Positions 17,608 to 54,106 of a stretch of DNA of 64,000 bases are shown one piece after another. The notes below the pieces were generated by a model that made no database searches, was not told where the DNA came from, and saw nothing but the letters and a program-made list of their open reading frames with translations. Every line of letters begins with the position of its first letter. Within the stretch, counting starts at the first letter, position 1. The stretch is from the IMG/VR virus record IMGVR_UViG_3300025087_000001, positions 62,001 through 126,000 of that record. The stretch is one strand, 5' to 3'. The translations under genes were made by a program, and so were the position numbers. This stretch comes from a virus.

Positions 17608-17614
17608 TTTTATC

Positions 17615-17839: not shown

Positions 17840-18161
17840 TCATCCTCCTAAGTCTCTCACTACAATGTTCACATCTATCTAGTAACAGCTCTAATGACTT
17901 ATCTTTATCAACAGAGCACATATGATTTAAATAATCTACATCAGGTTGGCTATAGGGTGAATTATGGTTATAGCCTCTGTTTATCATTTCATTAACCAAT
18001 TCATCGTGTCTTTGTTTCATGCTTTTGGGTTCAATCTGGCCAGCCCTACCGTTCATATTATATTTCTTAACAAACTGTTTAAAGAACTTGTGTATTTCGC
18101 CGTGTTCCCCTAACAAATGATTTTTACAAAGAATTTTAGGATCAACCATCCACATTCTCAT
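17814..18161 (-). CDS. Pyrimidine-dimer DNA glycosylase (endonuclease V) family protein
   Basis: 115 residues. MRMWMVDPKILCKNHLLGEHGEIHKF at the N-terminus and RHDELVNEMINRGYNHNSPY further on follow the PF03013 pattern (T4 DenV family; compare HLMAEYREL and IELIAECLKRGFN). DenV incises DNA at UV-induced cyclobutane dimers using its N-terminal amine and a glutamate; here a glutamate sits in LGEHGE but the N-terminus is Met-Arg rather than Thr, so catalysis is uncertain. First gene behind a strong sigma70-like promoter; good AGGAG site. Confidence 0.7.
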   Translation of the reverse strand: MRMWMVDPKILCKNHLLGEHGEIHKFFKQFVKKYNMNGRAGQIEPKSMKQRHDELVNEMINRGYNHNSPYSQPDVDYLNHMCSVDKDKSLELLLDRCEHCSERLRRMNENSIGRR

Positions 18162-31507: not shown

Positions 31508-31963
31508 TTATGGAAGATTAGATGCGCCAGCAGATTCGTCTTGGGAATCCGAGCTTTCGTCGAAGTGCTTTAGGCCCAAATAAGTAACTTGAATTCTAGA
31601 CGTTGCTTTTGCATTTACCCCAGTAGCGTAATTAACAGGTACACAACCAATAACGGTCATAATGGGTTTTTCTGGGTGCTGTCTATCAACTATAGAAATA
31701 GTTACACCTTCTAAGTTTAGAAGATCTTGAAGTTTCGGTACTTTAGGAAGTATATGACCACCATTGCCAACTATTCTAAATCCAGAACAATTAACAGTAA
31801 TAGCTTCGTAACTTGTCAGAGCAATCTCAGCAGGACTAAATCTACCTAAAATATGAATTGCCTCTGCACCGTGATTAACCGCCCAATTACAACTATCAAA
31901 AAGACCTACGGTTACGTTATCAACTTTTATTACAGCCGATGGTCCAACTAATACTTTACCCAT
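31508..31963 (-). CDS. Tail tube protein
   Basis: 151 residues. VLVGPSAVIKVDNVTVGLFDSCNWAVNHG at the N-terminus and the beta-rich rhythm through PEKPIMTVIGCVP fit tail tube proteins that line the myovirus tail. Sits downstream of the sheath gene (with an endonuclease between), as expected, behind its own candidate late promoter and a GGAG site. Confidence 0.7.
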   Translation of the reverse strand: MGKVLVGPSAVIKVDNVTVGLFDSCNWAVNHGAEAIHILGRFSPAEIALTSYEAITVNCSGFRIVGNGGHILPKVPKLQDLLNLEGVTISIVDRQHPEKPIMTVIGCVPVNYATGVNAKATSRIQVTYLGLKHFDESSDSQDESAGASNLP

Positions 31964-32051: not shown

Positions 32052-33020
32052 TTAATCAATATATTCAAACATATAGCCCTTGCGATGTATTCTTCGACCA
32101 GACAAACAATCTTTCACATATCCCTTATTAATATTGATTGATTTGGAACACTCATCTACACTTAGCCATTCGCCAACAAATTGTCCTTTGGAGTATACTG
32201 CTTTATTTTTAACAGTTGGTTTAACTAGTAATAACGATTTAAACACCCTAACTTTTTTATCTGAGTGTTTGTTTACATATTTTTTAGACTGTTCTAATTT
32301 TTCTACCAAAACTTGCTCGAAATTAGGCGTGTTGGAGTATATAAATATGTAATTATGGTAAAAACCAATATTATTGGTCATTACCTCGGATAATTCAGAT
32401 AAGCAAATTTTTAAATAATTGGCACATCTACTAATATTAGACCACTCTCCGATAAAATTCTTATTAGAATCAAACACTTTGAATTTTCTGTGCCTAGCTT
32501 TTAACATCGTACTTTTAATACTATGTTCTATTTTTTCCTTATCTTCTATATATGAAAAAATATACCTACCACAATAAGGCTGTTTTTTATTTAGATTTAA
32601 GTAAATCCCATTTTGTTGGACATTATATTTTCTAGCAGCTTCTGACTGATTTCTCATCATATTTATAATATGTCCCGTTTCTAAAGACCATATGTTAAAC
32701 CACCTACACTTCCTCCATTTTAAAGCAATATCAGATGAACGATCGTTGGGCCCGATAGATATATTATATCCATTAGGAATAGTACTATTAAATAAATTAG
32801 TATAATATATTTCACGATGGTTCATCATTTCTTTACTGTCGCATTTTGATATTTGGCTTATTTTAAAAACATGGGTTCCATATCTTCTCATAGCCCGATA
32901 GAGGGGGTATTTAGATTTTAATGCACATTTCAAGTGAGCTTTCCACCTCATCTTTAAGTTGACGGTTTGACCAATATAGATCTTACCATTGATAGTGTTT
33001 GTAATTTTATATATTACCAT
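32052..33020 (-). CDS. GIY-YIG homing endonuclease
   Basis: 322 residues. N-terminal GIY-YIG nuclease: IYKITNTINGKIYIGQT, then RMKWKAH with the conserved Arg, and NHREIYYTNLF containing the catalytic Glu. The C-terminal two thirds contain several NUMOD/IENR-type DNA-binding units (for example NIWSLETG...SEAARKYNVQQNGIYLNL and WSNISRCANYLKI). Inserted between the sheath terminator and the tube promoter, without disrupting either. A selfish free-standing gene. Confidence 0.9.
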   Translation of the reverse strand: MVIYKITNTINGKIYIGQTVNLKMRWKAHLKCALKSKYPLYRAMRRYGTHVFKISQISKCDSKEMMNHREIYYTNLFNSTIPNGYNISIGPNDRSSDIALKWRKCRWFNIWSLETGHIINMMRNQSEAARKYNVQQNGIYLNLNKKQPYCGRYIFSYIEDKEKIEHSIKSTMLKARHRKFKVFDSNKNFIGEWSNISRCANYLKICLSELSEVMTNNIGFYHNYIFIYSNTPNFEQVLVEKLEQSKKYVNKHSDKKVRVFKSLLLVKPTVKNKAVYSKGQFVGEWLSVDECSKSININKGYVKDCLSGRRIHRKGYMFEYID

Positions 33021-33055: not shown

Positions 33056-35641
33056 TTACGCTTCTGCGCTACTTGATATTTGACTAATATCTAAATTAAT
33101 AGGAATAAAATATATCGCTGTTGCCAATTTTATCTCAACAGAAACTCTTAAAATTGGCCCAACAGACTCAACCTTAGCATTTTTAAAACCCAATGGAGCA
33201 TCACTACTTGCGGCTATAAGTTTTTGTTTTTTATAACTATCCATTTTATAGGCTAAAAATGAAAGTCCAGTTGCAGCATCTACATCTGCTAGTGATTGAC
33301 CAACAAAAGCGGCTCCAAAACTTTCTACTAAATCTAGAGAAACTAAATCAGCAGCATAAACGGCTTGGATACTATTGTACACAAAGTTTGTATCAACACC
33401 GTAGGTGGTCTGATCACTTACGAATTTATTCCCAACAACAGCTTTTTCAAGAACTAAAAGTCCAGCATCCAAAGCGTCTTCTAAATCACTTGGATTTCCA
33501 CTATCAAAACCGGTTGGGTCTTCAAAGCTAATTACGTTAGCAAATTTATTAACAATTGCCTTGTAGAAACCGCCAGCTTGCATTCCAGCAGCTATACATG
33601 CAGTATGCCACGGTAAATAGCTAACTACTGTTCCAAAACTATTAACTTGACTGGTTTTTTGCATACAAACCGCAGCTCTATAATGTGCTAATGAGCTAGA
33701 TTTAGCTTTAGCGTCTGCATAAGATCCCCAGAAAGACAAGAAAGCTTGTCGATATTTTTTAATCTTAGGAGTAGACATTTTTAACACATGGGATTTAACC
33801 AATGCGTTAATAGCATCGATAGAGTATGTAGATGCGGAATCCGTCAATCCATCAGCAATATCATCAGAAGCGTCTCTTGAGAACAGTGGAATTACAAAGT
33901 TAGCTTTAATACCTTCCAAATCAGCTATTGCAGAAACTATATTAGAGGCAGAAGTAGCACCTTTTTCTCCATCTTCTAAGTAAGAAACAGAAGATTTCTT
34001 TAAAGGTAATCCTTTTACGGCTATAGCCACAAAATCCAATACAGAAGACTCACCGACTTTAGATTCAAAATTATAAAGAGCTCGTTTAATTCTACCAGCT
34101 TCATCCCCACAAATTCCTACAGCAGAAACCTGATCTAATGCAGATGGAGATTTTTGTGTTGAAGATTCTACCACAGAAGCGGTATAGTCGGTTTGTGAAT
34201 TGATAAAATCAGCCAAATCTTTAATAGTATTAAATTGAGAAAGAATAATGTTTAAATTGGCCCCAGCTCCGCCAACTACAGTAGTGGTTAAATTCGTACT
34301 ATTAATAGTACAAGTAGCGGTAGTTCCAGCATATCCAATTTTCATAGCTATTTCAGCAGCTACCAAATATTGTTCATTAGTATTATTGTCTTTTCTGTTA
34401 ATATCTAATTGAATTTCAGGTTCTTGACTAGATACTACTAATCCAGCGGCTAATTCTATAGCGGCCAAATCACCAAGTGAAGAATCGATTAATTCAAAAC
34501 TTCTTCCATATCCTAGAACGTTTGCTTGATCGTCAGTTAAAGTATCTAAAGCAAATACCAATTGGTTTCCAGAAGCAACGCATGAAATACCAGAAGGAAG
34601 CAATGCATCTATTTCAGAAGCTAATTCGGCTACAGTATCGTGAGCAGATTCAACACTACTTAAGGTAACCACGGTAATTGCACCGCCATTAACTCTTACT
34701 GAAAAAGATAGTCCGTTAAAAATTGAGCCGTCTGCACTATCACCAGTTTGTGAAGCAACATAAGCTACTGCACATGCGCCAACAGAAGCGCCACTGACAG
34801 AATCGTTATCATCATAAGCATTTGGTAATTCTGCAACAACACCAGCAACTATTTGATTAATTCCAATTACAGCGGAGGTATTATCTACAAGAGTTACTTT
34901 AGCCGTAAAACTAGTAAGTCCATTAAAAGCACCAATAATAGCAGTTGCTAAATCGGCGTCCGTTCCAATACTTGAAACATCTAAAACTACTTTATGGGTA
35001 GCAGCAACATAATGTGCGCCGGTAGGAACTACAAGGGCTCCACCAGTAGTATCTAAAGCAACGGCATATTTAGTGCCATCTTGAGCTGCAATATAAAAAT
35101 AATCCCCATCAGCCATTCCTGCTTGATCTACAGAAATACTTCCTTCTTCTTCCGTAGCATTAAAAGTAATGGCGTCTGAAGTAATAGAGGGGGCGACTTC
35201 TGATTTTGTTTGGGTTACATTGTAGTAATATTTATTACCATCAATTCCGTAATTTTTATCAGTAAGTGTTCCATAACTAGCGTCCATAAGTGCGGAAGCC
35301 TGTTCGCCTTGATTGGTTTTAGCGATATAAATTTTATTAGCCGATCCACTAATGTTGGCGTCTGAGCTAGGAGAAGCTAAAGCCATAAAAGCATCTACGA
35401 TTGGGCCACTAATATATTTACGAATAACCCTATCGGCTTGAGTTGGTGTAAAGTAATTATCTTTTAAGATATCTCCATTTACACTATCAATTCCTTTACA
35501 AACAGCTCCACCAGAAGCCTCACCAATAATAACAATATTACCAGAACTAGAGACTCCAACTGGTGTCGATTTTACTTTTGGGTCAATATATGAACCGGGT
35601 AAATTCGTATTTACAAAAGATTCTGTTAAGCGTTGTGACAT
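33056..35641 (-). CDS. Tail sheath protein
   Basis: 861 residues. N-terminal LPGSYIDPKVKS...VGVSSSGNIVIIGEASGG is characteristic of contractile sheath proteins, and the C-terminal region (about 590-861, with FWGSYADAK and IPINLDISQ) forms the conserved core. The middle (about 160-480) is a large, serine/valine/alanine-rich insertion of Ig-like or bacterial-surface-like strands that makes the protein longer than most sheaths. GGAG site before ATG; ends at a strong terminator. Confidence 0.85.
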   Translation of the reverse strand: MSQRLTESFVNTNLPGSYIDPKVKSTPVGVSSSGNIVIIGEASGGAVCKGIDSVNGDILKDNYFTPTQADRVIRKYISGPIVDAFMALASPSSDANISGSANKIYIAKTNQGEQASALMDASYGTLTDKNYGIDGNKYYYNVTQTKSEVAPSITSDAITFNATEEEGSISVDQAGMADGDYFYIAAQDGTKYAVALDTTGGALVVPTGAHYVAATHKVVLDVSSIGTDADLATAIIGAFNGLTSFTAKVTLVDNTSAVIGINQIVAGVVAELPNAYDDNDSVSGASVGACAVAYVASQTGDSADGSIFNGLSFSVRVNGGAITVVTLSSVESAHDTVAELASEIDALLPSGISCVASGNQLVFALDTLTDDQANVLGYGRSFELIDSSLGDLAAIELAAGLVVSSQEPEIQLDINRKDNNTNEQYLVAAEIAMKIGYAGTTATCTINSTNLTTTVVGGAGANLNIILSQFNTIKDLADFINSQTDYTASVVESSTQKSPSALDQVSAVGICGDEAGRIKRALYNFESKVGESSVLDFVAIAVKGLPLKKSSVSYLEDGEKGATSASNIVSAIADLEGIKANFVIPLFSRDASDDIADGLTDSASTYSIDAINALVKSHVLKMSTPKIKKYRQAFLSFWGSYADAKAKSSSLAHYRAAVCMQKTSQVNSFGTVVSYLPWHTACIAAGMQAGGFYKAIVNKFANVISFEDPTGFDSGNPSDLEDALDAGLLVLEKAVVGNKFVSDQTTYGVDTNFVYNSIQAVYAADLVSLDLVESFGAAFVGQSLADVDAATGLSFLAYKMDSYKKQKLIAASSDAPLGFKNAKVESVGPILRVSVEIKLATAIYFIPINLDISQISSSAEA

Positions 35642-37599: not shown

Positions 37600-37614
37600 T
37601 AAAGATTATTATTC
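37600..37614 (-). promoter_or_regulatory. Candidate late promoter before 37274-37555
   Basis: Minus strand GAATAATAATCTTTA, 45 bp before the ATG at 37555; partly overlaps the end of the upstream gene. Confidence 0.5.
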
Positions 37615-38607
37615 CTCATCGTCGTCAATTGTAATCCAAGTTTGATCGTCCCCACTATATTCTTCTGGAGCATCTTGACTTAATATCTTAATACCCTTAT
37701 CTAAAACGACTTCGTTAATTCCAATATTTTCAGAAAGATCAACAGCCTCAATTATTCTCTTGGGCCCTTTAATCCAAGACTCTTCTGTTTGGCCTCTTAA
37801 CACTATGTATCTAGAAAATACATTTTCTACTCCAAAAGCTTCATTTGGAACCATATCCGTACAAGATATTGAAGATAATTGAAAATTCTCTCTTTCCAAT
37901 AAAGACTCTCGATATCTCAACAATCCGTATTTTACGACAGAATATAGAAAAATCAAAGAACTGGGATCACCATGAGCATGACATCCAATGTTATAGGATT
38001 CTTTGGAAATTATTCTTTCTCTTCTAGCCCTATATAGTTGATATTGCGGAATAATTCCCATTTTACTGCTTTTTAAATCAGACCCGGCAGCTATTTGTAA
38101 TCCATTAGTTCCTGCTTTATCTAGTACTGTAAATCCCTCACCAGTATTTGGGTCAACTAAAATCATTCCCGCACCAATATATCTATATTCTTCAATAGAT
38201 TCAGGTACTTCAACAATTCCATTGTCTTTATCGTAAGAAACGATATTAAACGGAGGAACTATAAATCTAATGGACTTGTTAATATTGCTAGGTAGTAAAT
38301 CAACAACTTCATCGGATAAATCACCCAAAGTAGCTAAAGAGTCCATTTCTTCACTAGACCCAATAGATAGGGTTATGCAAGGGAATTCCTCTTTATCTAT
38401 ACGGCCTTTTAAATATACCGGTATTTTATTATTTAAAATAAATTCTTTGGCTCTATTGATTTCGGCTAATCCGTATTTTTCTTTTAAAAATGGGTTTTCT
38501 ATTAATGAGCTGAAAATATCCTCAATAAGCCAAGGATTTTTACGCATGTCCTCAATAGCAAGTTCGATTGCTGTTTTTACGATAAGATCTCCGGCAAAAA
38601 TAGACAT
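37609..38607 (-). CDS. Virion structural protein, neck or head-tail joining candidate
   Basis: 332 residues, mixed alpha/beta. Helical N-terminus (VKTAIELAIEDMRKNPWLIEDIF), a central beta domain and an acidic C-terminus (TWITIDDDEE). Between the HK97-gp10-like protein and the charged proteins in the head-tail region; it probably belongs to the neck. No family name recognised. Confidence 0.55.
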   Translation of the reverse strand: MSIFAGDLIVKTAIELAIEDMRKNPWLIEDIFSSLIENPFLKEKYGLAEINRAKEFILNNKIPVYLKGRIDKEEFPCITLSIGSSEEMDSLATLGDLSDEVVDLLPSNINKSIRFIVPPFNIVSYDKDNGIVEVPESIEEYRYIGAGMILVDPNTGEGFTVLDKAGTNGLQIAAGSDLKSSKMGIIPQYQLYRARRERIISKESYNIGCHAHGDPSSLIFLYSVVKYGLLRYRESLLERENFQLSSISCTDMVPNEAFGVENVFSRYIVLRGQTEESWIKGPKRIIEAVDLSENIGINEVVLDKGIKILSQDAPEEYSGDDQTWITIDDDEE

Positions 38608-38626: not shown

Positions 38627-38641
38627 TAAAGATTGCTATTT
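38627..38641 (-). promoter_or_regulatory. Candidate late promoter before 37609-38607
   Basis: Minus strand AAATAGCAATCTTTA, 20 bp before the ATG at 38607, overlapping the stop of the upstream gene by a few bases. Confidence 0.55.
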
Positions 38642-39391
38642 GTAGTCTTTTAAGATAGACGGTAGGATGGTTTGTTCCCACTGCTCACACGCCCATGAAA
38701 ACACCGAATCCATAAAATTCTTCGCCTCTAGACCAGGATGGACCCATTTCCCCTGAGATTGGTGAGATTCGTGTATAATTCTAAAAACCATATGTTGTCT
38801 TTTAATACTTCCATCACTCATTTTATGTTGATAAATAGAAAGTCCCTTCAATGCCGGATCTTTAGCCATCGGACTAGGCCTAGCAGAGTCTATATCAAAT
38901 TTATGGAGTAATCCAAGTCTAGGACTACCATCTTGATTATGTTCTATTTTCTTATAACTAACACCTTGCTGCTTTAAAAAAGCTTTGATTTGATTGGTTA
39001 AGTCCTGGGCTTTTGGTGTTTGTTCCGATGGATTTTTAGACATCTCGAATGGGATAATAGCATATTTTTTTCCATCTTTACTTGTTTTAGCAGATTTACC
39101 ATTAAGTAATTCAGACATCCATCCACTTTTCCTCCCCGACTCAATAAACATAGCTTCTTCTTTTAGTGAAACTATCCATAGATTAGCCTCAGGGTTGGTA
39201 AATTCTATAGCATCTTGGTATTTTTTTCTAAGGGATTTTAAACCGTCTCTTGACACCTCATAAAGTCGTGCGTTTGTCATCGAAGCCAACGCTTGTACCC
39301 CCTGCACCAACTCAGCTTCAACCTGTTTCTTAACTTCTTTGAAGTCTTTTACAATAGATTCAATATCAATATCAAGTTTTAAATTAGACAT
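38636..39391 (-). CDS. Tail completion / HK97 gp10-like protein
   Basis: 251 residues. The C-terminal WVHPGLEAKNFMDSVFSWACEQW resembles the conserved end of gp10-like minor tail proteins (W-x-HPG...F...A...W). N-terminal 60 residues helical. Immediately downstream of the frameshift extension of the cyclase-like protein. Start overlaps the GAGGAA site in the upstream gene end. Confidence 0.55.
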   Translation of the reverse strand: MSNLKLDIDIESIVKDFKEVKKQVEAELVQGVQALASMTNARLYEVSRDGLKSLRKKYQDAIEFTNPEANLWIVSLKEEAMFIESGRKSGWMSELLNGKSAKTSKDGKKYAIIPFEMSKNPSEQTPKAQDLTNQIKAFLKQQGVSYKKIEHNQDGSPRLGLLHKFDIDSARPSPMAKDPALKGLSIYQHKMSDGSIKRQHMVFRIIHESHQSQGKWVHPGLEAKNFMDSVFSWACEQWEQTILPSILKDYK

Positions 39392-39394
39392 CTT

Positions 39395-39700
39395 CTATTG
39401 TTCCTCTGGCCCTTCTTTAGTATCCCTATATCCCATATGAGGAACCGACCCTCTACGCTTCCCACCTTCGTGGGCAGAATGGTGAGGAGCTTTTTTCATT
39501 TGGGATTTATTGTAGTTTTTAGAGGTAGGATCAGAATCAAAATCACGCAGAATTCCACGCCTCACGCCTCTCCAGGATTCACGCCCCGTTGTACCATCAA
39601 CCACTTTCATTTTACCGTCTTTTTCAGCACCTACTGGAGATTGTGGTATAGGAATGTGTTTAGTTGGATTGTCTGGAAGTGAACTTATTGATTTAAGGGG
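39395..39700 (-). CDS. -1 frame extension of the mCpol-like protein (101 residues)
   Basis: Open in the -1 frame from the slippery A9 tract at 39701-39709 to a stop at 39395, without any stop codon in between. The product starts PLKSISSLPDNPTKHIPIPQ and continues into a basic region (GRESWRGVRRGILRDF, KKAPHHSAHEGGKRRG). An ATG at 39610 lies within it but has no ribosome binding site. Most simply it is the C-terminus of a 567-residue fusion made by -1 frameshifting or transcriptional slippage; a sequencing error in the homopolymer would also give a single gene. Confidence 0.6.
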   Translation of the reverse strand, partial: PLKSISSLPDNPTKHIPIPQSPVGAEKDGKMKVVDGTTGRESWRGVRRGILRDFDSDPTSKNYNKSQMKKAPHHSAHEGGKRRGSVPHMGYRDTKEGPEEQ

Positions 39701-41097
39701 TTTTTTTTTACGTCATCTGGGTTTTGTAAAGCATCTTCTGGCATTTCAGAATCATCTTGAAACTCCCCAGCATGAGGTAAACTTTCTTCAATCTCACTAC
39801 GACCATCGGCATCTTGCATATCTTCTTCTGGATCATAACCATTTAGTTGTTTGGCCATTTGAATCATAGACCTAAGCATAGTAATGAGAGATTGATATAA
39901 TTCTGGATTATTTTCTTTAGCGTCTTCTAACATAGCCTTATTTTGCTTAAAACCCTGCAATGCATTGAAAATATCTTGTTTTAATTCAGAACTATTATCT
40001 TCTTGACCGTCTTGCATATCTTCAGGTATTTCTTCGCCTTCTGACATTTCTTCGGATTCATTAGGGTCTTGTTGGTCAGATAAATGGCCATGTATCATAT
40101 TAGATAACATATCATATCTATCGCCACCTTCTTCTGAATTTTCTTCAGGCATCTCTTCACCCTCAGAGTCTCCCTCTAAACCATCCTCATCTTGTGGGCC
40201 AACATAGTCCTCTTCGTCTTTTGAATTTTCTTGTTGATCGCCTTGATATGTTAAGTCACCATTAGCAACGTGTTCGGGTTTTAATTCTTCTATTTCGTCT
40301 GGATTTATATCGAAATAATTCTCGTCATCTTCGGATAATTCTGGAGCTTCTTCAGATATATCTTCTAAATTTTCCTCTGAATTTTCTTCACCTTCCTCGG
40401 ACACATCCTCTTCAGGCATTTCTTCGCCTTCTGTGGACTCATCAATATTGTCAATTTCTGGTTCCGTAGATTCCTCGTCAAAACCAGTTTCCTTAACTTC
40501 ATCTTCTGGAACAGTATCACCTTCGGACATATCTTCTTCAGAGACTTCTTCAGAGACTTCTTCGCTTGCTGGAATATTATCTTCCTCAGGTATACCTTCT
40601 AAATCACTATCTTCTGACTCTTCTGGAACATCGGAGTCGTCCTCAATTGAGGAATCTGCATTTTCCTGAATATTTTCATCTTCTGGAATTTCAGAATCTT
40701 CATCTACATTGTTTTCTGCTAAAAATTTATCTACTTCTGGTGAATACTCAACAATTTGGTTCTTTCCATTCATCTTACCGTAGATTAAAGCCTTGGAAGA
40801 CTCGCTCATTGTTGAACCAACGCCAATAGTTAAACTATGGCCAGACATCTCTTTATATCTATCACGAATTCCTTCTAATTCTTGAGCAGCTTCAATTGGA
40901 ATCTCAAATATTGATTCGTCCCCAGACGACACTATCACTCGACCTTGTTTAGATTCAACCCATTGGTCTATTTCAGAATGGTTATCTTTAATTGATTGGG
41001 ATAATTTGCCCAGACCTTCGTGATCGTCAGAAGCAATAGCTTGGCCAAGTTCAGAACCGATATTATCACCATTAATACTAACATAAATTTTATCCAT
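39685..41097 (-). CDS. mCpol/GGDEF-like nucleotide-cyclase-fold protein with long acidic tail
   Basis: 470 residues. N-terminal domain, about residues 1-115: IYVSINGDNIGSEL (4-17), VIVSSGDESIFEI (54-66), LTIGVG (79-84) and ALIYGKMNGKNQIVEY (93-108). This order of strands (GDxIG; GDE; L-T-I-G-V-G; A-L-x-x-x-K-x-x-G-K-N) is that of minimal CRISPR polymerase (mCpol) and GGDEF nucleotidyl cyclases, which make cyclic oligonucleotides or cyclic di-GMP. The first metal-binding aspartate of the D-G-D motif is Asn9 here, while D11 and D60 are present, so activity is uncertain. Residues 130-470 are extremely acidic, with SEEM/PEE repeats. Preceded by its own operon neighbours in the virion cluster. Confidence 0.65.
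   Translation of the reverse strand: MDKIYVSINGDNIGSELGQAIASDDHEGLGKLSQSIKDNHSEIDQWVESKQGRVIVSSGDESIFEIPIEAAQELEGIRDRYKEMSGHSLTIGVGSTMSESSKALIYGKMNGKNQIVEYSPEVDKFLAENNVDEDSEIPEDENIQENADSSIEDDSDVPEESEDSDLEGIPEEDNIPASEEVSEEVSEEDMSEGDTVPEDEVKETGFDEESTEPEIDNIDESTEGEEMPEEDVSEEGEENSEENLEDISEEAPELSEDDENYFDINPDEIEELKPEHVANGDLTYQGDQQENSKDEEDYVGPQDEDGLEGDSEGEEMPEENSEEGGDRYDMLSNMIHGHLSDQQDPNESEEMSEGEEIPEDMQDGQEDNSSELKQDIFNALQGFKQNKAMLEDAKENNPELYQSLITMLRSMIQMAKQLNGYDPEEDMQDADGRSEIEESLPHAGEFQDDSEMPEDALQNPDDVKKNPLNQ
39700..39710 (-). other. Slippery site A AAA AAC in an A9 tract
   Basis: Minus strand GTA AAA AAA AAC CCC: the heptamer A_AAA_AAC lies in the zero frame. Shifting -1 gives CCC CTT AAA as the next codons and opens the 101-residue extension. 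No strong hairpin or pseudoknot was found by eye directly downstream. Confidence 0.6.
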
Positions 41098-41107
41098 ATA
41101 TCGATCC

Positions 41108-42001
41108 TTATTTATTTTTTAAAGCTTCAAGTAACATCTCAATATTTTCAGCACCAAAATCTTTGGGGAATTTTATTTTTACCCTACCGTTTTCTATTTT
41201 TTTTACCTTTATCTCTTTACCCATATTTTCACCAAAGCAAATACAGGGACTTATCTTATCATCGCCCTTACATAAAATCCCACCACAATCAGGACATTTA
41301 ATTTCTTTCTTGTCCATTTCAATAGATTCTTCTTTTACTGGAGCCCTATTTACTCTATCTTCTAAGAATTGTTTTAACTTACTTTTCTTATCAGGCTCTG
41401 GCTCTTCAGGTTGTGGAGCAATTGTTATTTGAGGTCTAAATAACTCAGAAGTAATCCTTTGATGAATTAAATCTTTTATAGCTTCTCTTTCTGAAATCTT
41501 CTTATCAACAACACTATGAACCAAATCGTATAGCTTAAGTCTTTCATCTATTAGATTTTGTAAACTTTCAGCCTTATCGGATTGATAGTCGGCAGGTCCC
41601 AATCTGTTAAGCTGATCAGTATCATATAGTTCCAAACTGGACATTAAGATCAAACCAATAGATGGCAATGATCTATATTTAAATTCTGCTATTTTCTTAC
41701 CCTCTTTAACTAAATCGCCACTATAATTATCAGGAGATAGTTTATTAATATGTAGCTTAGCTTCAGCAAATGGCAAGTCCAAATCAATAATATCGCCTAT
41801 TTGTTTATCTTTTAAGTTCATAAACAGATAGCTTAAAACAGATCTAGGTACGATTTGTAAGGCTATTTTAATATCGTTAGGGTCGGTAACTGTATTTGTA
41901 TTAAGCTTAAGAATACCACCAGAAATTTCAGATTTCTCCAATTTGTCTAGGATATCCTCTCCTAAGAGTCTTTTAATTAGATTTCTTTCTTTTTCTTTCA
42001 T
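41108..42001 (-). CDS. Virion-cluster protein with zinc ribbon
   Basis: 297 residues, helical, with a C-terminal CPDCGGILCKGDDKISPCICFG region (four or five cysteines) that should bind zinc. A linker rich in P and E precedes it (APQPEEPEPDK). Adjacent to the mCpol-like gene and coupled to the next by TAATG. No family recognised. Confidence 0.6.
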   Translation of the reverse strand: MKEKERNLIKRLLGEDILDKLEKSEISGGILKLNTNTVTDPNDIKIALQIVPRSVLSYLFMNLKDKQIGDIIDLDLPFAEAKLHINKLSPDNYSGDLVKEGKKIAEFKYRSLPSIGLILMSSLELYDTDQLNRLGPADYQSDKAESLQNLIDERLKLYDLVHSVVDKKISEREAIKDLIHQRITSELFRPQITIAPQPEEPEPDKKSKLKQFLEDRVNRAPVKEESIEMDKKEIKCPDCGGILCKGDDKISPCICFGENMGKEIKVKKIENGRVKIKFPKDFGAENIEMLLEALKNK

Positions 42002-42448: not shown

Positions 42449-42463
42449 TAAAGATTAGTATTA
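42449..42463 (-). promoter_or_regulatory. Candidate late promoter before 42001-42417
   Basis: Minus strand GAATAATACTAATCTTTA, 32 bp before the ATG at 42417. The box begins at 42463 in the end of the next gene. Confidence 0.5.
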
Positions 42464-43336
42464 TTCCTCAAACTGCCCCATATCAACCTTTACATCATAT
42501 TTATTAGGATCTAAAGAATCGTCCGGTTTAACTTGCGTTCTACTTTTCGGCTGTTCTTTGGTTGAATTGATATTTTCCGTTGCCTTTCTAATTGCGTTAT
42601 GGTAAACATACTCTCTTTGAATCATACATTGATAAGGGAGCCTAACTGGATTTACACCATCATTAGTAACTCTAATTTCGTTTATTAGTTGGGAAACATA
42701 CCAATATGCTAAATATGTATATCTAATAGAATAAACCCTACCTTTTCCTGTAGAAATATCAATACCTGGATTTCGATTACCAGATATCCACTGAATATTA
42801 CCATACTGGTCGGTCGTGAAATCGACATTGTATATGTACTCAATATTTTGAGAATCTATTAAGTAACTTACACATTTAGCTGGAAATTGTAGATAGTCAT
42901 TATGTTTAACACCATATTCAGCTCTTTGATAGTTATCTACTTTTAATTCTATATTTTTGGCATAAATACGATCGCCAGGCAATAGAGATATTTCTTTTTT
43001 GTCTGGGCCATTAATATGACATTGATAATATTTAGGCAATACTAATCTAGCCGTTGAATTATCGTAAATTCCACCGTCTGTGTTGGTATTGTGTTTACTA
43101 TTACTAACAATAGTACCCTTAAATTCACCTACTTTTTTATAGATAAACCCGTTTTCAGAAACAACGTCTAGTTCGCCAGATCTTCGATAGTCACCCCTAT
43201 CTTTTAAACCAATAGGAGAAGGTATAGCTACCCAATGCTCAAGTAAAATTCCCTTGTCTGTAGCAAACTGCTCTTGAGCCTCAAAAGTGAAGCCGATATC
43301 TGGTATTTCGATTGGAAGTACGTTAATCTTACTCAT
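42461..43336 (-). CDS. Virion structural protein, neck or head-proximal tail
   Basis: 291 residues of mixed alpha/beta, with a well-conserved-looking block (GNRNPGIDISTGKGRVYSIRYTYLAYWYVSQLINEIRVTN). Common in large myophages as an unnamed structural protein. Overlaps the small coiled-coil gene upstream. Confidence 0.6.
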   Translation of the reverse strand: MSKINVLPIEIPDIGFTFEAQEQFATDKGILLEHWVAIPSPIGLKDRGDYRRSGELDVVSENGFIYKKVGEFKGTIVSNSKHNTNTDGGIYDNSTARLVLPKYYQCHINGPDKKEISLLPGDRIYAKNIELKVDNYQRAEYGVKHNDYLQFPAKCVSYLIDSQNIEYIYNVDFTTDQYGNIQWISGNRNPGIDISTGKGRVYSIRYTYLAYWYVSQLINEIRVTNDGVNPVRLPYQCMIQREYVYHNAIRKATENINSTKEQPKSRTQVKPDDSLDPNKYDVKVDMGQFEE

Positions 43337-44176: not shown

Positions 44177-44428
44177 TTATAGGTCGAAATCGTCGCCATA
44201 AGGAAACTCAAATTCAGGCACTTTCCATTGGCCAGAAGTTTCCAGTATTCTGTGATATTTAACAGATTCATAAATATAAATTGTTTTAAGTATTAGTTTT
44301 AAGTTCCCTTCTATTTCACCAGACTGTATCTTATCTGATTCTATTTCTAATTTAATAATAGAATGGGCAAGATCGTCCCAATCCATAGAGATAGCTTTAT
44401 CCACAATAGCTTGATCTTTTTTGTTCAT
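44177..44428 (-). CDS. Small acidic helical protein, 83 residues
   Basis: Helical with an aromatic C-terminus (WKVPEFEFPYGDDFDL). Start overlaps the stop of the transglycosylase (TAATG). No family recognised. May be a small virion chaperone. Confidence 0.55.
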   Translation of the reverse strand: MNKKDQAIVDKAISMDWDDLAHSIIKLEIESDKIQSGEIEGNLKLILKTIYIYESVKYHRILETSGQWKVPEFEFPYGDDFDL

Positions 44429-44910
44429 TAAAAATACCTTTTAACTAGTTTTTCATACTCCAGTCTTTTATGTTTACTTGACGCATTATATCTTGACCAC
44501 CAACGCTTTTCAGTTTTTTTGTATCTTTTAAAATCTGCCAACACCATAGCACCGGCCCAAATCGAATAGTCTAAGTCTTTCAGTAATTTAGACCTATCTA
44601 GGTTGTAGCTTTTCGCTGTTCTATGGTTAATTTGGCTAATCCCAAAATCAGTACACTTCTTAATACACCTTTTAGCGCCCAATTTATACCCACTTTCTTG
44701 CATTAATATGGCGGTATAGATATGGGCTGGTATCTTATGTTTTATGCTATGTCTATCAATAAGTTTAGCTAATTTAGTCGCATATTTCTTATCTATATTG
44801 GGCTTATTTTTTAAGATCTGTCTGTAGGTTCGTTTTGGGTTATCGTTTTCCCCAAAAGTACATATTGTAACTAATAATAAGGCGGTGGTTAAAAAATATT
44901 TAAATCCCAT
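44428..44910 (-). CDS. Lytic transglycosylase (SLT family), leaderless start
   Basis: 160 residues: N-terminal signal-like segment MGFKYFLTTALLLVTICTFG, then an SLT domain with the catalytic glutamate at E72 in AILMQESGYKLGA and DFGISQINHRTA afterwards. It cleaves the glycan strands of peptidoglycan by forming 1,6-anhydro ends. The ATG at 44910 lies 5 nt after a TAATAT hexamer, so no ribosome site is available upstream. Secreted, it could support entry or lysis. Confidence 0.85.
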   Translation of the reverse strand: MGFKYFLTTALLLVTICTFGENDNPKRTYRQILKNKPNIDKKYATKLAKLIDRHSIKHKIPAHIYTAILMQESGYKLGAKRCIKKCTDFGISQINHRTAKSYNLDRSKLLKDLDYSIWAGAMVLADFKRYKKTEKRWWSRYNASSKHKRLEYEKLVKRYF

Positions 44911-44915
44911 ACTAT

Positions 44916-44926
44916 ATATTACCACA
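44916..44926 (-). promoter_or_regulatory. Extended -10 promoter giving a leaderless transglycosylase mRNA
   Basis: Minus strand TGTGG then TAATAT (44921-44916), five bases (ATAGT), then ATG at 44910. Distance leaves no room for a 5' leader. Confidence 0.6.
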
Positions 44927-44945: not shown

Positions 44946-47900
44946 CTATTTTTTAAGATTCTTAATGATTTTGGACACATAGAAGTGATTATTAAAATTA
45001 GAATCACCTCCCTTAAGTTGGCTTTCCTGTCTGGTATTCTCTGGATTTTGATACCAAGCATGGGCTATATGGTCAGGTTTGTTTCCAAACTCACTCTGTA
45101 AATTATGCCAATGAGAATCTGCCAATTGATGGTCTAAATTAGGATCGTTTTTTAGTTGTTGATCTAATTCATTGGGGGAAAGTTTTAATAAATGGCCATA
45201 CCTTTCACCTAATGTTTGGTTTTTATTAAAAACACTTTTAATAGCGTTTTGAGACAGGCTATATTGTCCAAACCTACCTTTAGGTAAAACATTGTTTTCA
45301 ACAATAGGATTATTCTTAATATTATGTAACATGTCAGATTTTAAACCATGGTCTGGGGCAATTTTTACTTGGTTTATTTGAGACTGATCAACAGAAGAAG
45401 GTTGCCTGCCAGGTTCTTTGTTTTGACCCATATTGTGGGCTCCCACTAACATTGTTGATAGGGCGGCTCCTGTTGCAATAGCTTTTCTCCAACTTTTCTG
45501 TAAAATACCGTTTCTTTTATGCCATTTAGTTTGGGATTTATCTAAAGATGGACTACAATATCCATCAATCCTTTCTTCGTCACCACAAATAATACATCTT
45601 GGGTGTCCATTTGGGTGCGTCCACTGAGCAGCTTTAAATTTGTGTTTTCTTTTGGCCTCAGCTTTTTCTTTATTTTTCTTAATTATTTCACCTTCTTCAT
45701 CTGCGTTAATTTTAGATTTAGTCAAATCATTTTCTATATTTTCGCCGGCTGCCAGCCTACCCCCTTTACCATATATTCGCTGTTTCCAGTTTATCTTACG
45801 ATCAAGTCCTTCTTTGTTAGGTAATTTTTGCCAATTAGCATGTAAAAAATTATGTGGCTTAACGATGTACTCCTGCTCTCTCGGGATTAACTCATCGTAT
45901 TCTTTAATATCTCTATCAATTGAATTCGGTATGTAATTATGAATAGCACTTTCTGGTATCCAAGCAGAATGAACTGTACTTTTCGTACCATCGTCGTCAA
46001 TACTGTCGGCAAAATCATTAGCTATATTGTAGTTTGGCGTCCAAGATGATAGTGATGTATTGTGTGTGTCCGAATCAGTCTCAGTACCCCTATGCATTAA
46101 AAACATTCTCTCCCCAGTTTTAGGATGTTTTTTTACTTCTGTTTGAGAATGTAGCTTATGAAAAAACCTCTGTTTGGCTTTATTGGTGGCTTCTGGGATA
46201 TTTTCCCTAGGTTGCTGCTCTGATACCCAATTGATCATAGTATTAGTCTCTTGAGGTCTTAATTGTTTTTTGGGATTACCCATTTTACTTTGAAGACTTC
46301 CTTTCTGCAAATCGTTTTCTAAATCCATAGCCTTCTTAATATGATCTGATTTTTTCAATTCTTCAAAAAATTTATCGAAATATGGTGCCAATTTTTCTTT
46401 TTGTTCCTTGGTACACCACATTAAACCTTCGCTGCCACCAGATAAATATGTATTTTCTCTGTCTTTGGATTTTAATTTATAACTAATATATCCTTCAAAA
46501 GCTCTGGCGAATAATTCCTTAGGTGACATCCAATAGCTAGGCTTTTCCTTAATTCCGTGTTTAGCTAAATCATTAAGAGCATCACGGGTAGAGTCTTTAA
46601 AGCTTTTCCAAGCATCTGATTTAACCAATTCTTTCATAGATTCTTGAACCGGAGATTTATCACCCATATTCCAAACAGCAGATTCGGATAAGAATTGATT
46701 TTCTGGGTGAGCATTTACACCATGAGTTTTGGATAAAATATTGTCTAAAAAATGGCCCCATTCATGAGCCAATGATCCGACACCTTTCGACCTAGTTAAA
46801 TTAATAGCAATTTCTTTTGGTTCATAATGAGCTAAAGCAGTTCCGTGGCCTCTGGCTCCAATTGCTAACCCTAACCTACCATTAAATGAAATCATTTTTT
46901 CGGGTAAGTCTAATATATCTGCCAAATCCTTAAAGGCTTCGGAAGACATTTTCAAATGGTGTTTTCTTTCTTCGTCAGTAACACTATTTCCCCACTGTAA
47001 ACCCTTCATTTCACAGGATTTTATAATAAAATTAGCTTGGTCTTCTTCGGTAGTTAATTTAGTATCTGGGCCAGTTCTTTTAGCGTCTTGAGTATAGATC
47101 TCGGCTACAGAAAACTTTTTAGATTTTTTACCTTCTGAGACTATTTCAAAAACTTTACTTAAAGACTTTCCTTCCACCAAGTCTTTTATTTTTCTTACGC
47201 CCTCTTCGGTATAAAATTCAGCCATAGCAGCTTGTCTAGTTTCCTTAAGCATATAACCAACACTTAACCCATCCTGATCGGATTCAGGTAGTGTTCTAGC
47301 AAAAGCATTTACTAAATCCTCAACGTCTTGACCAACAGAGCCCTTTGTTTTTCTAAAATTTAAGGTTTTATTTACATAGGGAACTAAGAAGTCGTCGGAA
47401 CCTCTTACATAGTTTTCAGAAGCCCTGTTTTCTTTAATCTTAGCAACAATTTCTTTTTGGATAGCTGAAATAACGTCGGTAAATAATAAGTCTTTTTGTT
47501 TAGACAGCTCTTGAACTCTATTTCTAACATATTCAAAAGTTTCCAAATACATTTCTTTTTGAACTTCGTGTTTTGGACTAGCAGGAAATCTATTTAAAAT
47601 TTGGTTGGCTACATAGGGGATAATTGGATTGTCCTTAGCTACATCGTCTATTAGATTGATAGGGAATTGTTTCAATAGGTTTTTAACGGTAATATCGGAT
47701 ATTTCGGCAGTTCCCATATCTTTAATAGAGCTATATTGTCTTTTATGTCTAGCTGAGCCTTTTATATCTTTACCCAAGTTAGAAACCTTGGATTTACGAG
47801 CGTTTACATATTCTTCTTGTTTTTCTTCTGAGGTTTCGGAAATTTCTTGTCTTGGTGACTCAACAACTTCTTTCGTTTGTTCTGTTTCTTCCTGGGGCTT

Positions 47901-48188
47901 TGATACTTGAGGCTCTGGAGATTTTACTTCATGAGGAGTTTTAATATCTGAAACTGGTTTTTGAACTTCTGGAGGTTGTTTAGGCTGCTCATTAGTTTTT
48001 GGCTCATGCCCCTGAGCAACATAGTCCCAACCATCTTGGGTTTTGATATAGTCTTTTCCATCCCAAGTTCTGGTTTCGCCGATATTAGCTTTTTTACCAC
48101 CTTTGAAGAGATCGGAAATATGTTGTTTCTGAAGATCTTGCTCTATTACTTCTTCTATTTTTTCTAGTAAATCCTGTAACTTATCCAT
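44946..48188 (-). CDS. Polyvalent virion protein: zinc-peptidase motif plus possible ADP-ribosyltransferase
   Basis: 1080 residues. N-terminal GETRTWDGKDYIKTQDGW (37-54) resembles a segment found in many phage head and injected proteins. HEWGH at 475-479 with following helices (SPKELFARAFEGYI) is a zinc-metallopeptidase signature. About 695-775: FLMHRGTE, SLSSWTPNYNIAND and PREQEYIV follow the R / S-T-S / E-x-E order of ADP-ribosyltransferases. A CxxC pair near 865 suggests a zinc knuckle, and the C-terminal 100 residues may be a binding domain. Probably packaged and injected to modify host proteins; individual activities are inference. Confidence 0.7.
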   Translation of the reverse strand: MDKLQDLLEKIEEVIEQDLQKQHISDLFKGGKKANIGETRTWDGKDYIKTQDGWDYVAQGHEPKTNEQPKQPPEVQKPVSDIKTPHEVKSPEPQVSKPQEETEQTKEVVESPRQEISETSEEKQEEYVNARKSKVSNLGKDIKGSARHKRQYSSIKDMGTAEISDITVKNLLKQFPINLIDDVAKDNPIIPYVANQILNRFPASPKHEVQKEMYLETFEYVRNRVQELSKQKDLLFTDVISAIQKEIVAKIKENRASENYVRGSDDFLVPYVNKTLNFRKTKGSVGQDVEDLVNAFARTLPESDQDGLSVGYMLKETRQAAMAEFYTEEGVRKIKDLVEGKSLSKVFEIVSEGKKSKKFSVAEIYTQDAKRTGPDTKLTTEEDQANFIIKSCEMKGLQWGNSVTDEERKHHLKMSSEAFKDLADILDLPEKMISFNGRLGLAIGARGHGTALAHYEPKEIAINLTRSKGVGSLAHEWGHFLDNILSKTHGVNAHPENQFLSESAVWNMGDKSPVQESMKELVKSDAWKSFKDSTRDALNDLAKHGIKEKPSYWMSPKELFARAFEGYISYKLKSKDRENTYLSGGSEGLMWCTKEQKEKLAPYFDKFFEELKKSDHIKKAMDLENDLQKGSLQSKMGNPKKQLRPQETNTMINWVSEQQPRENIPEATNKAKQRFFHKLHSQTEVKKHPKTGERMFLMHRGTETDSDTHNTSLSSWTPNYNIANDFADSIDDDGTKSTVHSAWIPESAIHNYIPNSIDRDIKEYDELIPREQEYIVKPHNFLHANWQKLPNKEGLDRKINWKQRIYGKGGRLAAGENIENDLTKSKINADEEGEIIKKNKEKAEAKRKHKFKAAQWTHPNGHPRCIICGDEERIDGYCSPSLDKSQTKWHKRNGILQKSWRKAIATGAALSTMLVGAHNMGQNKEPGRQPSSVDQSQINQVKIAPDHGLKSDMLHNIKNNPIVENNVLPKGRFGQYSLSQNAIKSVFNKNQTLGERYGHLLKLSPNELDQQLKNDPNLDHQLADSHWHNLQSEFGNKPDHIAHAWYQNPENTRQESQLKGGDSNFNNHFYVSKIIKNLKK

Positions 48189-51045: not shown

Positions 51046-52257
51046 CTACCTCAAGGACATTTTCAATTTTGCCAAAAACTTAGGATCGTGGTGTCCAAAT
51101 TCATTAGCGTATTGTTCTGCACTACTGTGAATCTGTTTATTACTGTTGTGATCAAAACTAGTAGTTCTTTTAAAATCCATCGGATGCATTGGAACTTCTT
51201 TTTCAATTGGCATTTTTTCAAACATCCCGACCACATTTTTCATGGTATCGCCTAAGCTAGAATTATAGATTCCATGGTAACCAGCATTTCTAATAGCATT
51301 GTGGAAATCTTCTTTTCTAACTACACCAGGATTGGTCTGTCTTTTCTGAGCAATTTCTTCAGCTTGACTCCACAAATTATGACTATCTTTGCCAATATCA
51401 TAAAGTTTTTTACTACCTAAAGAAGTAATGTATTTACTTTTAGATCCAGATGTTACAATATGTTCTGGCTCAGTATTTTCTAAATAAAAGAAAGACATTG
51501 GATGTTCCGGTTTACCTTGTTTAGCTTCGGAACCTATTCCCCTGACCCCGTGATGTTCTGGATCCAATTCGGTTAATCCTTGTTGGGGGGAGTAGTGGAT
51601 CAATTTAGTATCTGGATTATGGTCTTCTAAAGGATGCTTATCCTGATTTTTACATAAATAAAATCCATTTTTAGCATAAAACTCTGATTTGTTAATCTTA
51701 GTAGGTTTCATTTTTAACATAGATTCGGACATCGGATATAGATTTTCGTGATCCATGTTGTGTTGGAAAACCATACCGTCTTTTGTTTCGGAATAATTAT
51801 CATTTGGCTTAACTTTAGGAATATCTGTTCCAGTTCCTTTCATATGTTGACCGGCATTTGGGCCTGAATGGAAGTGAAGTTCGCTGTTTAGTCCTGAAGA
51901 ATATAGGCTTGATTCTTGTCCAAGTGCTTGAACTAATTGGTGTAAATGAGGTATTGATCTAATATGTGGATTGTGAATTAAAATACTTTTTTCTTTATCT
52001 CCATATTTTCCCTCAATCTCATCCACCCCATACATTTCGTGAGCATCATAACCCTTGTCTCTCAAAAGATCTAAGACATCCTCATGAGTCATTTTGGTTT
52101 TAGTAGGGTATCTGGGATTTTCAGTGGAAAATATAAAGTGAGGTTGTCGATTTAAAATAGCATTGGGTTTTTCACCAATACTTTTATGTAAATTGTTGAT
52201 AAAATTGAGTTTATCTTCTTTTTGCTTTTCGATTGTTTTAAGTAGTAGTTTGTACAT
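51046..52257 (-). CDS. Polyvalent virion protein, 403 residues
   Basis: Histidine-rich. TKLIHYSPQQGLTELDPEHHGVRGIGSE followed by SFFYLE and IVTSGSKSKY resembles a domain found in large phage polyvalent proteins, and RNAGYHGIYNSSLGDTMKNV another. Its 5' end overlaps the EDxHD homing endonuclease by 20 bases. Probably injected with the genome. Confidence 0.55.
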   Translation of the reverse strand: MYKLLLKTIEKQKEDKLNFINNLHKSIGEKPNAILNRQPHFIFSTENPRYPTKTKMTHEDVLDLLRDKGYDAHEMYGVDEIEGKYGDKEKSILIHNPHIRSIPHLHQLVQALGQESSLYSSGLNSELHFHSGPNAGQHMKGTGTDIPKVKPNDNYSETKDGMVFQHNMDHENLYPMSESMLKMKPTKINKSEFYAKNGFYLCKNQDKHPLEDHNPDTKLIHYSPQQGLTELDPEHHGVRGIGSEAKQGKPEHPMSFFYLENTEPEHIVTSGSKSKYITSLGSKKLYDIGKDSHNLWSQAEEIAQKRQTNPGVVRKEDFHNAIRNAGYHGIYNSSLGDTMKNVVGMFEKMPIEKEVPMHPMDFKRTTSFDHNSNKQIHSSAEQYANEFGHHDPKFLAKLKMSLR

Positions 52258-54106
52258 ATTTCCTCACAAATAACCTCTGACCAGCATCGTAAATCTTATA
52301 CCATTTTAATTCATTGGCATATTCACGTTCTTTAAGCTTCCTCTCATCCATATTAGCCCGACACCTTCTACGATTAAAGGTATCAAACTTATCCGTCCAT
52401 TCCCAACCTAAAGTATCGTGAGAGTGTTGGAATCCCAATTGCTCTAAAAATTTACCAGTTCCATACTTTAAATCAACCCAATAATAAACTTCTTTAAAAC
52501 TCTCATTTCTTTCTAAATATTTTAATAACTTAGAGAACCCACCAATAATTCTAGTATTCAAATCTGTACAGAATCTTTCAACTTTAAGGGTGTTTTTATC
52601 GTAAATCTTATAACTTAGCACACTCTTAAGATTGCCATTATAATACAGACCTATGTGTTTTCCCGAAAAATAGCCCTTTAAATGGCACCTAGTTAGGAAT
52701 TCTTTAGCGTCCTCAGTTTTTACTTCTTTAATTTCAGTTTTACGACCGTAGATAGTTGCAATATTAGTATTTGTCTTATTATTCACAATAGACTTGACTA
52801 TTTCAGGATTTTTATAAATATCGTTTTCACGGAATTGGAGAATTTGCAGACCTAACTCCTCATATTTTTGTCTCATGGTAAAATGATAGTAACTATCGTC
52901 CACCTCTTTTTCACAGTGCCAATACAAACCATCAACGTTTAAATATAAAATGTCACTTATTTTGAAATCCGGCTTATAGTTTAATGTGAGGTGTGCTTTT
53001 TGATTATAATTCTCTAGCCCCAAAAGCTTATTGGTATACAGTTCTAAACTAGTAAATCTATCTATACTGATTTTAGCCAAAAAAGAGTGTAATTCTTCAT
53101 AGGTGGAGAAGGAATTCCTCTTAAACAAAGACCAAGTAAAAGAATGTGATAATTTGTATTGTTCCGCCAATTCATCGATCGTTTGCCCAAAAATACAAGT
53201 CTGGTTCCCCCTGCTTATATTAGTTTCTATCCTAAGCTTTCTTTTGAGCGCATGGCTTTTGTGTAGGTTAAACTTATGAATATAATATTCAACCAACCAC
53301 ATACTAATATTTTCCTGTTCGGCTATTTCGATAATTCTAGTATTCTCTACAATATACTTTTGATATAGCCATTCTTTATCTTTAACATTACTGTTATTTT
53401 TTTGTAAAAAACTACCCTTCTGCTCGGTACTCTTTTTAAAACCATACTTAATCCGATAAAGCCTAGCCATTCTAATGGTTGACCCAGCCTCCTTAGCAAC
53501 CTCAATTATAGTCTTGTTTTCTGAAATATATTTTTGGTAAAACCATTCTGGATTTTTTAGTAAATCCCATTGCGTGTCTTTATTAGTATTTAACTTAGTC
53601 CACATTTCTTTCGTTTTCTTTGTGCCTATTTTATCCATACACTTTCTAATTTTAAATTCACTTATTTTAAGAATATTTGCCACCTCTAAAGCTGTCTTAT
53701 TTTGATTAATATACAATTCAATAATATCTTTATAGGGAATATTGTCGTCGGCTACTTTTTTTCGGTATTGCCTATATCGATCGTCCACATCAACATTGTG
53801 ATCGGACAATATCCTTGCAACAGACGATACATTGGTGTTATATTTTTTAGCTATTTCAGGAGTAAGCATTTTATTAACCAAATAGTCGTCAATTAACTTT
53901 TGATGATCTATTCTTCGATTTGATCTCGAAACATTTTGGTGTTTTAACTCTAAGGGTTTAGTAATATTGTATTTCTTGAGATATCTTATAATACTAGTGT
54001 GGCCACAATTCAATTCCTTAGCTGTTTCGGGTATAGTCTTGTTTTGGTTTAGATATAAATCTATTAGTCGGTCTTTATCTATTAGTATTTTGATTCCCCT
54101 ACCCAT
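52238..54106 (-). CDS. Homing endonuclease with helix-turn-helix array and EDxHD/Vsr-type nuclease
   Basis: 622 residues. The N-terminal half has at least five related helix-turn-helix units (each a DxxxLYxxQNKTxxEVAxxLxxSxxxI pattern), a DNA-reading array. At about 385-445 KPDFKISDILYLNVDGLYWHCEK...YYHFTMRQKYEELGLQILQFRENDI fits the Vsr-like EDxHD nuclease of I-Bth0305I and Hef-like enzymes. A GNAT-like domain follows (VLSYKIYDKNTLKVERFC). It has its own promoter, so it is expressed independently of its neighbours. Selfish gene in the virion cluster. Confidence 0.8.
   Translation of the reverse strand: MGRGIKILIDKDRLIDLYLNQNKTIPETAKELNCGHTSIIRYLKKYNITKPLELKHQNVSRSNRRIDHQKLIDDYLVNKMLTPEIAKKYNTNVSSVARILSDHNVDVDDRYRQYRKKVADDNIPYKDIIELYINQNKTALEVANILKISEFKIRKCMDKIGTKKTKEMWTKLNTNKDTQWDLLKNPEWFYQKYISENKTIIEVAKEAGSTIRMARLYRIKYGFKKSTEQKGSFLQKNNSNVKDKEWLYQKYIVENTRIIEIAEQENISMWLVEYYIHKFNLHKSHALKRKLRIETNISRGNQTCIFGQTIDELAEQYKLSHSFTWSLFKRNSFSTYEELHSFLAKISIDRFTSLELYTNKLLGLENYNQKAHLTLNYKPDFKISDILYLNVDGLYWHCEKEVDDSYYHFTMRQKYEELGLQILQFRENDIYKNPEIVKSIVNNKTNTNIATIYGRKTEIKEVKTEDAKEFLTRCHLKGYFSGKHIGLYYNGNLKSVLSYKIYDKNTLKVERFCTDLNTRIIGGFSKLLKYLERNESFKEVYYWVDLKYGTGKFLEQLGFQHSHDTLGWEWTDKFDTFNRRRCRANMDERKLKEREYANELKWYKIYDAGQRLFVRKYVQTTT

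Follow-up and report, generated by a model that had tools for sequence, protein, structure and literature searches.

A probable mCpol-fold pseudo-cyclase with an exchangeable N-terminal domain and a predicted frameshifted tail in a phage neck/tail module

Why would a phage keep a nucleotide-cyclase palm among its head and tail genes? The question is raised by one gene in a window of 64,000 nucleotides (the whole stretch analysed, positions 62,001 to 126,000 of IMG/VR virus record IMGVR_UViG_3300025087_000001). A sequence-only reading had described the product as an mCpol/GGDEF-like palm fused to a long acidic tail and placed in a virion cluster. The matter goes beyond one phage. Work from 2025 identified mCpol enzymes as guards of nucleotide-signal immunity in bacteria. 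That a separate, conserved clade of phage mCpols lies within a virion module, with the active site intact in most members, raises the possibility that phages themselves are a source of immune-type signals.

The open reading frame is real (Table 1), and NGDNIG, SGDESIFEI, LTIGVG and ALIYGKMNGKN occur in it in the order that had been noted. The first 118 residues match the whole Pfam mCpol profile (PF18182, positions 1-114) with 59 bits and E 7.2e-16, the curated cut-off being 26.4 bits. The only good sequence matches in the PDB are the OptS/mCpol chains 9nwn and 9mnr, at E 1.3e-7 for the single sequence and 1e-15 when a profile is used. An AlphaFold2 model of the palm, built on an 11-sequence alignment, has a mean pLDDT of 91.9 and a pTM of 0.85. 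The PDB structure that Foldseek ranks first for this model is OptS 9mnr (E 1.5e-8, TM 0.80/0.89, rmsd 1.5 A), followed by GGDEF domains and Cas10/Csm1. The profile search and the Foldseek comparison of an AlphaFold model, both proposed as checks in the sequence-only reading, thus found the palm with OptS as best match. Pfam, AlphaFold2 and Foldseek all give a palm, so the outcome that would have refuted the reading, the lack of a palm fold, did not occur. In Pfam the Cas10 palm profile (PF22335) reaches 21 bits, under its cut-off of 27, and no other Cas10 domain gave a match in the protein. There is no GGDEF Pfam match in the protein or anywhere in this phage genome, and PHROGs has no family for it. 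The domain has the profile score and the palm fold with central sheet of an mCpol, while of the catalytic pair (OptS D6 and D57) it keeps only D57. Since fold and profile place the domain in mCpol and the catalytic pair is incomplete, the protein should on sequence grounds be called an mCpol-fold pseudo-cyclase rather than an mCpol enzyme.

Table 1. Features of the mCpol-fold locus and its module, in window coordinates.
Feature	Position	Strand	Basis or remark
mCpol-fold gene, zero-frame (short) product, 470 aa	39685..41097	minus	ORF, ATG at 41097; Pfam PF18182; conserved position
mCpol palm domain, residues about 3-118	40744..41091	minus	Pfam, AlphaFold, Foldseek, residue alignment
Acidic linker, not conserved in sequence	39976..40737	minus	Net charge about -25 per 60 aa
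Conserved C-terminal helix FNALQGFKQNKAMLEDAKENNPELYQSLITMLRSMIQMAKQL, about residues 375-419, weakly charged	39841..39975	minus	Kept even where mCpol is replaced
Slippery heptamer A_AAA_AAC inside a run of nine A, predicted -1 frameshift	39700..39706	minus	No downstream hairpin in this phage
-1-frame extension, 101 codons + stop, PLKSISSLPDNPTKHIP...KVVDGTTGRESW...	39395..39699	minus	Fused in frame in other phages
Zinc-ribbon protein, 297 aa, CPDCG...CICFG	41108..42001	minus	Directly upstream in nearly all relatives, including where mCpol is replaced
Conserved small protein of the module, 138 aa	42001..42417	minus	Conserved gene order
Neck protein, SPO1 gp6.4 homologue (phrog_1004, head and packaging)	42461..43336	minus	PHROGs, profile comparison
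SPO1 gp7.1 homologue (phrog_16819)	38636..39391	minus	PHROGs, conserved order, profile comparison
Tail-terminator-like protein, SPO1 gp7.2-like	37609..38607	minus	Weak PF23932 match below cut-off
Tail sheath protein, Mx1 and SPO1 gp9.1 homologue	33056..35641	minus	Homology
Tail tube protein, SPO1 gp10.1 homologue	31508..31963	minus	Homology

The next clue is where the gene lies. Among annotated phage records only Myxococcus phage Mx1, an isolated phage, has a close relative of the gene (25% identity; product WNM70340.1, annotated hypothetical), and there the C-terminal tail described below is fused. A scan of IMG/VR with an alignment of the adjoining neck protein gathered 46 contigs, 43 of which carry an mCpol domain; the contigs in this and later counts are related rather than independent samples, and expected values overstate their independence. 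In those 43 contigs, in the window and in Mx1 the position is fixed, with a neck protein like SPO1 gp6.4 on one side and a gp7.1-like protein on the other. The order shared by the window and its relatives is p175, neck, p138, zinc ribbon, mCpol, gp7.1-like, terminator and then, further on, sheath and tube; only in a few divergent contigs do some of its members go undetected. A scan of the species-genome collection with the phage mCpol alignment found no relative, so no prophage form was seen.

Profiles of the neck, gp7.1-like, sheath and tube proteins are matched by SPO1 gp6.4, gp7.1, gp9.1 and gp10.1 respectively. What had been called a virion cluster can thus be specified, by homology of the flanking genes, as a neck/tail module. 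The module of SPO1 (gp6.4-gp7.1-gp7.2-gp9.1-gp10.1) has the same order but, unlike that of the window, is without a zinc-ribbon protein and an mCpol gene. Because gp6.4 adjoins gp7.1 in SPO1 with no gene between them, the zinc-ribbon and mCpol genes are additions to a SPO1-like neck module and not core neck genes. It is this position that suggests that the mCpol-fold protein is present in the virion. The zinc-ribbon neighbour was considered as an effector and dropped, its AlphaFold2 model being of low confidence (pTM 0.39) and without a significant PDB match by Foldseek.

The protein beyond the palm falls into two parts. A 340-residue acidic tail had been described. The stretch is acidic only from about residue 121 to about residue 360 (net -22 to -28 per 60 aa) and then gives way to the conserved, weakly charged helix. 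A pattern of about 43 residues, L..F+.N+..LE......P.LY..LI..L..MI.MAK.L, recurs in this helix across members from Mx1 to the window. At three loci (L064, L066 and L067) a CxxC-rich array stands instead of mCpol, at the same gene position and with the helix retained. When the helix was taken as the starting point of a separate scan, nearly all the complete ORFs recovered had mCpol, and the others were of the CxxC type. As mCpol can be swapped for a CxxC domain with the helix kept, the N-terminal domain appears to be exchangeable, whereas the helix and the position do not. Such exchange would favour a carrier-plus-payload design and argues against the palm being required for assembly.

Some details of these proteins may be recorded here. 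The CxxC arrays that precede the same helix and tail (L064:12287-13726, L066:12300-13739, L067:6222-7550 and L083, which is cut) consist of CKYC, CQYC and CPYC repeats, six in 150 aa. The linkers of L005, L006 and L002 (e.g., L005:9983-12574) contain DUF5661 (PF18905), DxDxDG calcium-loop-like repeats and a Cys-containing basic motif, SFCA.S..KM...G.DCR. A lytic-transglycosylase fusion suspected by eye in L075 was dropped, as Pfam gave no support.

Is the palm an enzyme? Alignment to KpOptS bears out the earlier reading of the residues, with Asn9 (codon AAT) at the position of the first catalytic aspartate, D6, and D11 and D60 kept at those of D8 and D57. S33 corresponds to S30, K37 to N34, and K108 and K112 to K105 and K109 (OptS numbering is used below). 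The D6N change abolishes synthesis by KpOptS (PMC12657218), and S30 and N34 confer ATP selectivity in OptS (PMC12657230). The window copy carries naturally the very change tested in the laboratory, and it is therefore probably not an OptS-type cyclase. Signal synthesis, which had been suggested for it, finds no support in this copy. Some metal binding or altered catalysis would be possible despite N6, because D8 and E58 are kept.

The sister phages present another picture. The 37 distinct phage domains comprise 24 with D6, D8 and D57, seven with N6 and D8 (the clade of the window, itself included) and six in which the site is lost (Mx1, L010 and four remote ones). Mapped on the tree, the states form clusters that need three changes, the minimum possible; some forks are weak. 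The 24 intact sequences share just 14 invariant columns, and a literal GGDE motif is present in many sister copies. Since D6, D8, S30, D57, K105 and K109 all sit in these columns, the enzymatic reading is well supported for the sister phages, where the pattern points to purifying selection on an enzyme site. The invariant positions of the N6 clade are N6, D8, S55-G56-D57-E58, K105 and K109. At position 34 the window and the majority of its clade have K, and two clade members have T at position 30. One mCpol gene of the clade (L054:6885-8162) is broken at the SGDE/D57 region; the copy may be decaying, or the break may be a sequencing error. In a tree with 12 bacterial mCpol and Cas10-type domains, a sample and not all bacterial mCpols, the phage mCpols fall into a single clade (92/88), separate from OptS and the other bacterial mCpols. 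The six intact N6 domains form a clade with support 92/92, and every standalone bacterial mCpol copy on that tree keeps D6. Ready-made test pairs thus exist in nature, as some sister copies have the catalytic aspartate and others lack it.

What if the palm were a mere dimer or tetramer scaffold in neck/head assembly, with the acidic region also acting in assembly? A purely structural factor of this kind would agree with the fixed neck-module position, with the conserved helix and with the six site-lost copies, in which the protein persists without any active site. However, it leaves unexplained why 24 members that diverge from one another strictly keep the catalytic residues, why the whole domain is swapped for a CxxC domain and why the SPO1 neck module has no such gene. 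We regard it as rather unlikely.

A second possibility, and an unlikely one, is that the pseudo-cyclase pocket serves as a nucleotide sponge that would bind and hide host cyclic dinucleotides at a dimer interface, like Acb2/Acb4. The loss of one catalytic Asp with the remaining pocket kept clade-wide has the look of a binding-only domain, and the OptS pockets do form between two protomers (PMC12657218). Against this, the base-recognition positions 30 and 34 are variable in the window clade, and a low-copy neck protein would serve poorly as a sponge.

It is more improbable that the window phage too has an active virion-borne cyclase, in which D8 and E58 replace D6 in the metal role. Its cyclic dinucleotide would be made early, and the product could be, for example, a decoy that silences Panoptes-type effectors or occupies CBASS receptors. 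The rest of the pocket is kept (D8, SGDE and two lysines), the full site is found in the 24 sister copies, and immune effectors are regulated by mCpol products (PMC12657218; PMC12657230). However, D6N by itself is enough to stop KpOptS, the adenine-recognition residue N34 is replaced in most of the clade and S30 in two members, and an adjoining effector gene was not identified.

The other end of the protein holds a further surprise. The zero-frame stop is probably not the protein's only end, since the -1-frame extension runs on to 39395 and predicts a long product of 466 + 101 = 567 aa. A conserved tail, LP.K.TxH...P..PxG......KV.D..TG...W.....G, is fused in frame in many relatives. In the unfused loci, window included, it occupies the -1 frame, which stays open past the zero-frame stop, and mostly no start codon precedes the conserved part of the tail. 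In the window, too, this part begins before any start codon is reached, and an ATG occurs inside the tail ORF. A slippery heptamer is present in 17 of the 18 unfused loci, where about 2.3 would be expected from equal-length windows near the gene end. The heptamers in the overlap are A_AAA_AAG (nine loci), C_CCA_AAG (six), A_AAA_AAA (one) and that of the window; in L030 the overlap of the frames is exactly the heptamer's seven bases. The combination of heptamer and -1 frame occurs in 23/42 mCpol genes and in 6/319 genes of eight neighbouring families.

A hairpin about 6 nt downstream of the heptamer is predicted in nearly every locus except the window (mean z -2.31; control positions, -0.69 and 0.04). 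Its stem, in nine aligned sequences, has 13 two-sided compensatory cells, a number reached by 0/500 shuffles, and the signal collapses when the stem is slid. In the window there is no stimulatory structure 5-9 nt downstream of the heptamer, in contrast to the covarying one of the relatives, and because the site lacks a hairpin the long form may be rare in this phage. The mCpol-fold protein thus appears, from comparative sequence evidence, to be made in two lengths via -1 ribosomal frameshifting. RNA polymerase slippage on the A run would yield the same fusion. That the tail is instead a separate gene, a dead remnant or a poly-A assembly error is very unlikely. The window's nine-A run without a hairpin and its internal ATG would suit such a reading. 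Against it speak the -1 offset shared by nearly all unfused loci, whose heptamers are of two unrelated types (A_AAA_AAG/C and C_CCA_AAG), the missing start codons in most loci, the covarying hairpin elsewhere and the in-frame fusions in other phages. In a single unfused relative (L055:12301-13600) the tail is in the +1 frame instead of the -1 frame, and this locus has no slippery heptamer.

Phage tail-assembly chaperones of the lambda G/GT type are known for a programmed -1 frameshift, with a heptamer at the end of a late gene and a minor, C-terminally extended form. The mCpol gene resembles them in the placement of its slippery heptamer. However, it is a different gene, upstream of the sheath, and its extension is a conserved tail for which other phages have an in-frame fusion.

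The explanation that we prefer, and place just on the probable side, is that of a late neck/tail-module protein with an exchangeable payload, an acidic linker, a helix and a frameshifted tail, the palm being a synthase in the sister phages and a pseudo-cyclase in the clade of the window. It starts from what can be read by sequence comparison and prediction, namely the mCpol fold, the fixed position, the residue states, the helix, the payload replacement, the -1-frame tail with its heptamers and the covarying hairpin elsewhere. The N-terminal payload, here the mCpol palm, would be joined through the long linker to the conserved helix, and -1 ribosomal frameshifting would add the conserved C-terminal tail to a fraction of the molecules. 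The helix and/or the tail would link the protein to the particle or to particle assembly, with the frameshift setting the share of extended copies. In sister phages (GGDE/GSDE) the palm would be an active synthase of a cyclic dinucleotide that, made late or delivered with the virion, may interfere with nucleotide-signal immunity (CBASS, Panoptes). In the window clade the fixed D6N change would leave a pseudo-cyclase, at most binding nucleotide via the kept D8, SGDE and lysines.

A bolder reading, which we consider doubtful, extends this to a whole clade of large contractile phages. In it a Panoptes-type cyclic-dinucleotide synthase is an exchangeable neck-module payload that, whether delivered or made late, counters nucleotide-signal immunity, the frameshift sets the virion-anchored share, and the window lineage carries a binding-only decoy. 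The exchangeable N-terminal domain and the frameshifted tail hint at a possible general way in which phages mount payloads on the virion.

How does the preferred explanation, a payload carried by a late neck/tail-module protein, compare with known systems? OptS/mCpol of Panoptes (PF18182; PDB 9mnr, 9pd0 and 9nwn) shares with the window palm the fold over the whole domain, about 25% identity, the motif order and the positions of D8, D57, S30 and the lysines. In contrast, the window palm has N for D6, continues into an acidic linker, a helix and a frameshifted tail, and belongs to a separate phage clade with its gene in a neck module. No OptE (S-2TMbeta) effector is found among the mCpol neighbours, which are neck/tail genes, and there is no effector-family match among the families scanned. 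Because no OptE was identified among these neighbours, the window locus does not appear to be a Panoptes system. GGDEF diguanylate cyclases and the Cas10 palm belong to the same superfamily as the window palm, with Foldseek matches to DosC, GcbC and Csm1, but the likeness is weaker (TMq about 0.5-0.75).

GGDEF domains in polyvalent phage proteins have been proposed to make signals, phages deploying GGDEF-type enzymes in virion-linked proteins (PMC5512222). The broad idea of phage signal enzymes in such proteins thus has a precedent, one that does not name mCpol. Like the mCpol-fold protein, these are late phage proteins of a virion neighbourhood. However, polyvalent proteins are multi-domain, whereas the window protein has one recognisable (enzyme) domain plus helix and frameshift and so falls outside that class. 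A literature search with subscription papers mostly outside its scope found no precedent for the phage mCpol clade, the neck position, the payload exchange or the frameshift. The earlier impression that the architecture has no described relative is thus upheld for PHROGs and for the literature searched; the exchangeable N-terminal domain, the conserved helix and the frameshift are additions to that reading.

Several other genes were noticed. The Mx1 record (L012) has a separate GGDEF-domain gene at 17173-17904 (NGGDEF; PF00990 E 1.3e-9), between the prohead protease and the major capsid protein, giving its virion region two palm-fold genes in total; no second phage record has this gene. In the window, homologues of Mx1 proteins are the prohead protease (60310-61464, minus), a scaffold-like protein (62320-62982, plus) and the major capsid protein (62992-64000, plus). 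APSxLxxGSAL is common to the protease and the capsid protein, perhaps as a cleavage or targeting signal. As a packaging signal it was rejected, being present in the window only in these two proteins and absent from the mCpol protein. Homing-endonuclease-like genes lie among the structural genes at 52238-54106 (minus, HNH/HTH type) and 32052-33020 (minus, GIY-YIG type). Near the neck genes, 44428-44925 (minus) encodes an SLT transglycosylase-domain protein (PF01464 E 4e-7), likely a virion or lysis enzyme. The 1080-aa protein at 44946-48188 (minus), with LPD1 (PF18796) and phrog_616, looks like a polyvalent protein; by eye it has a HEWGH metallopeptidase-like motif and an ADP-ribosyltransferase-like stretch, HRGT...SSWT...EQEYIV.
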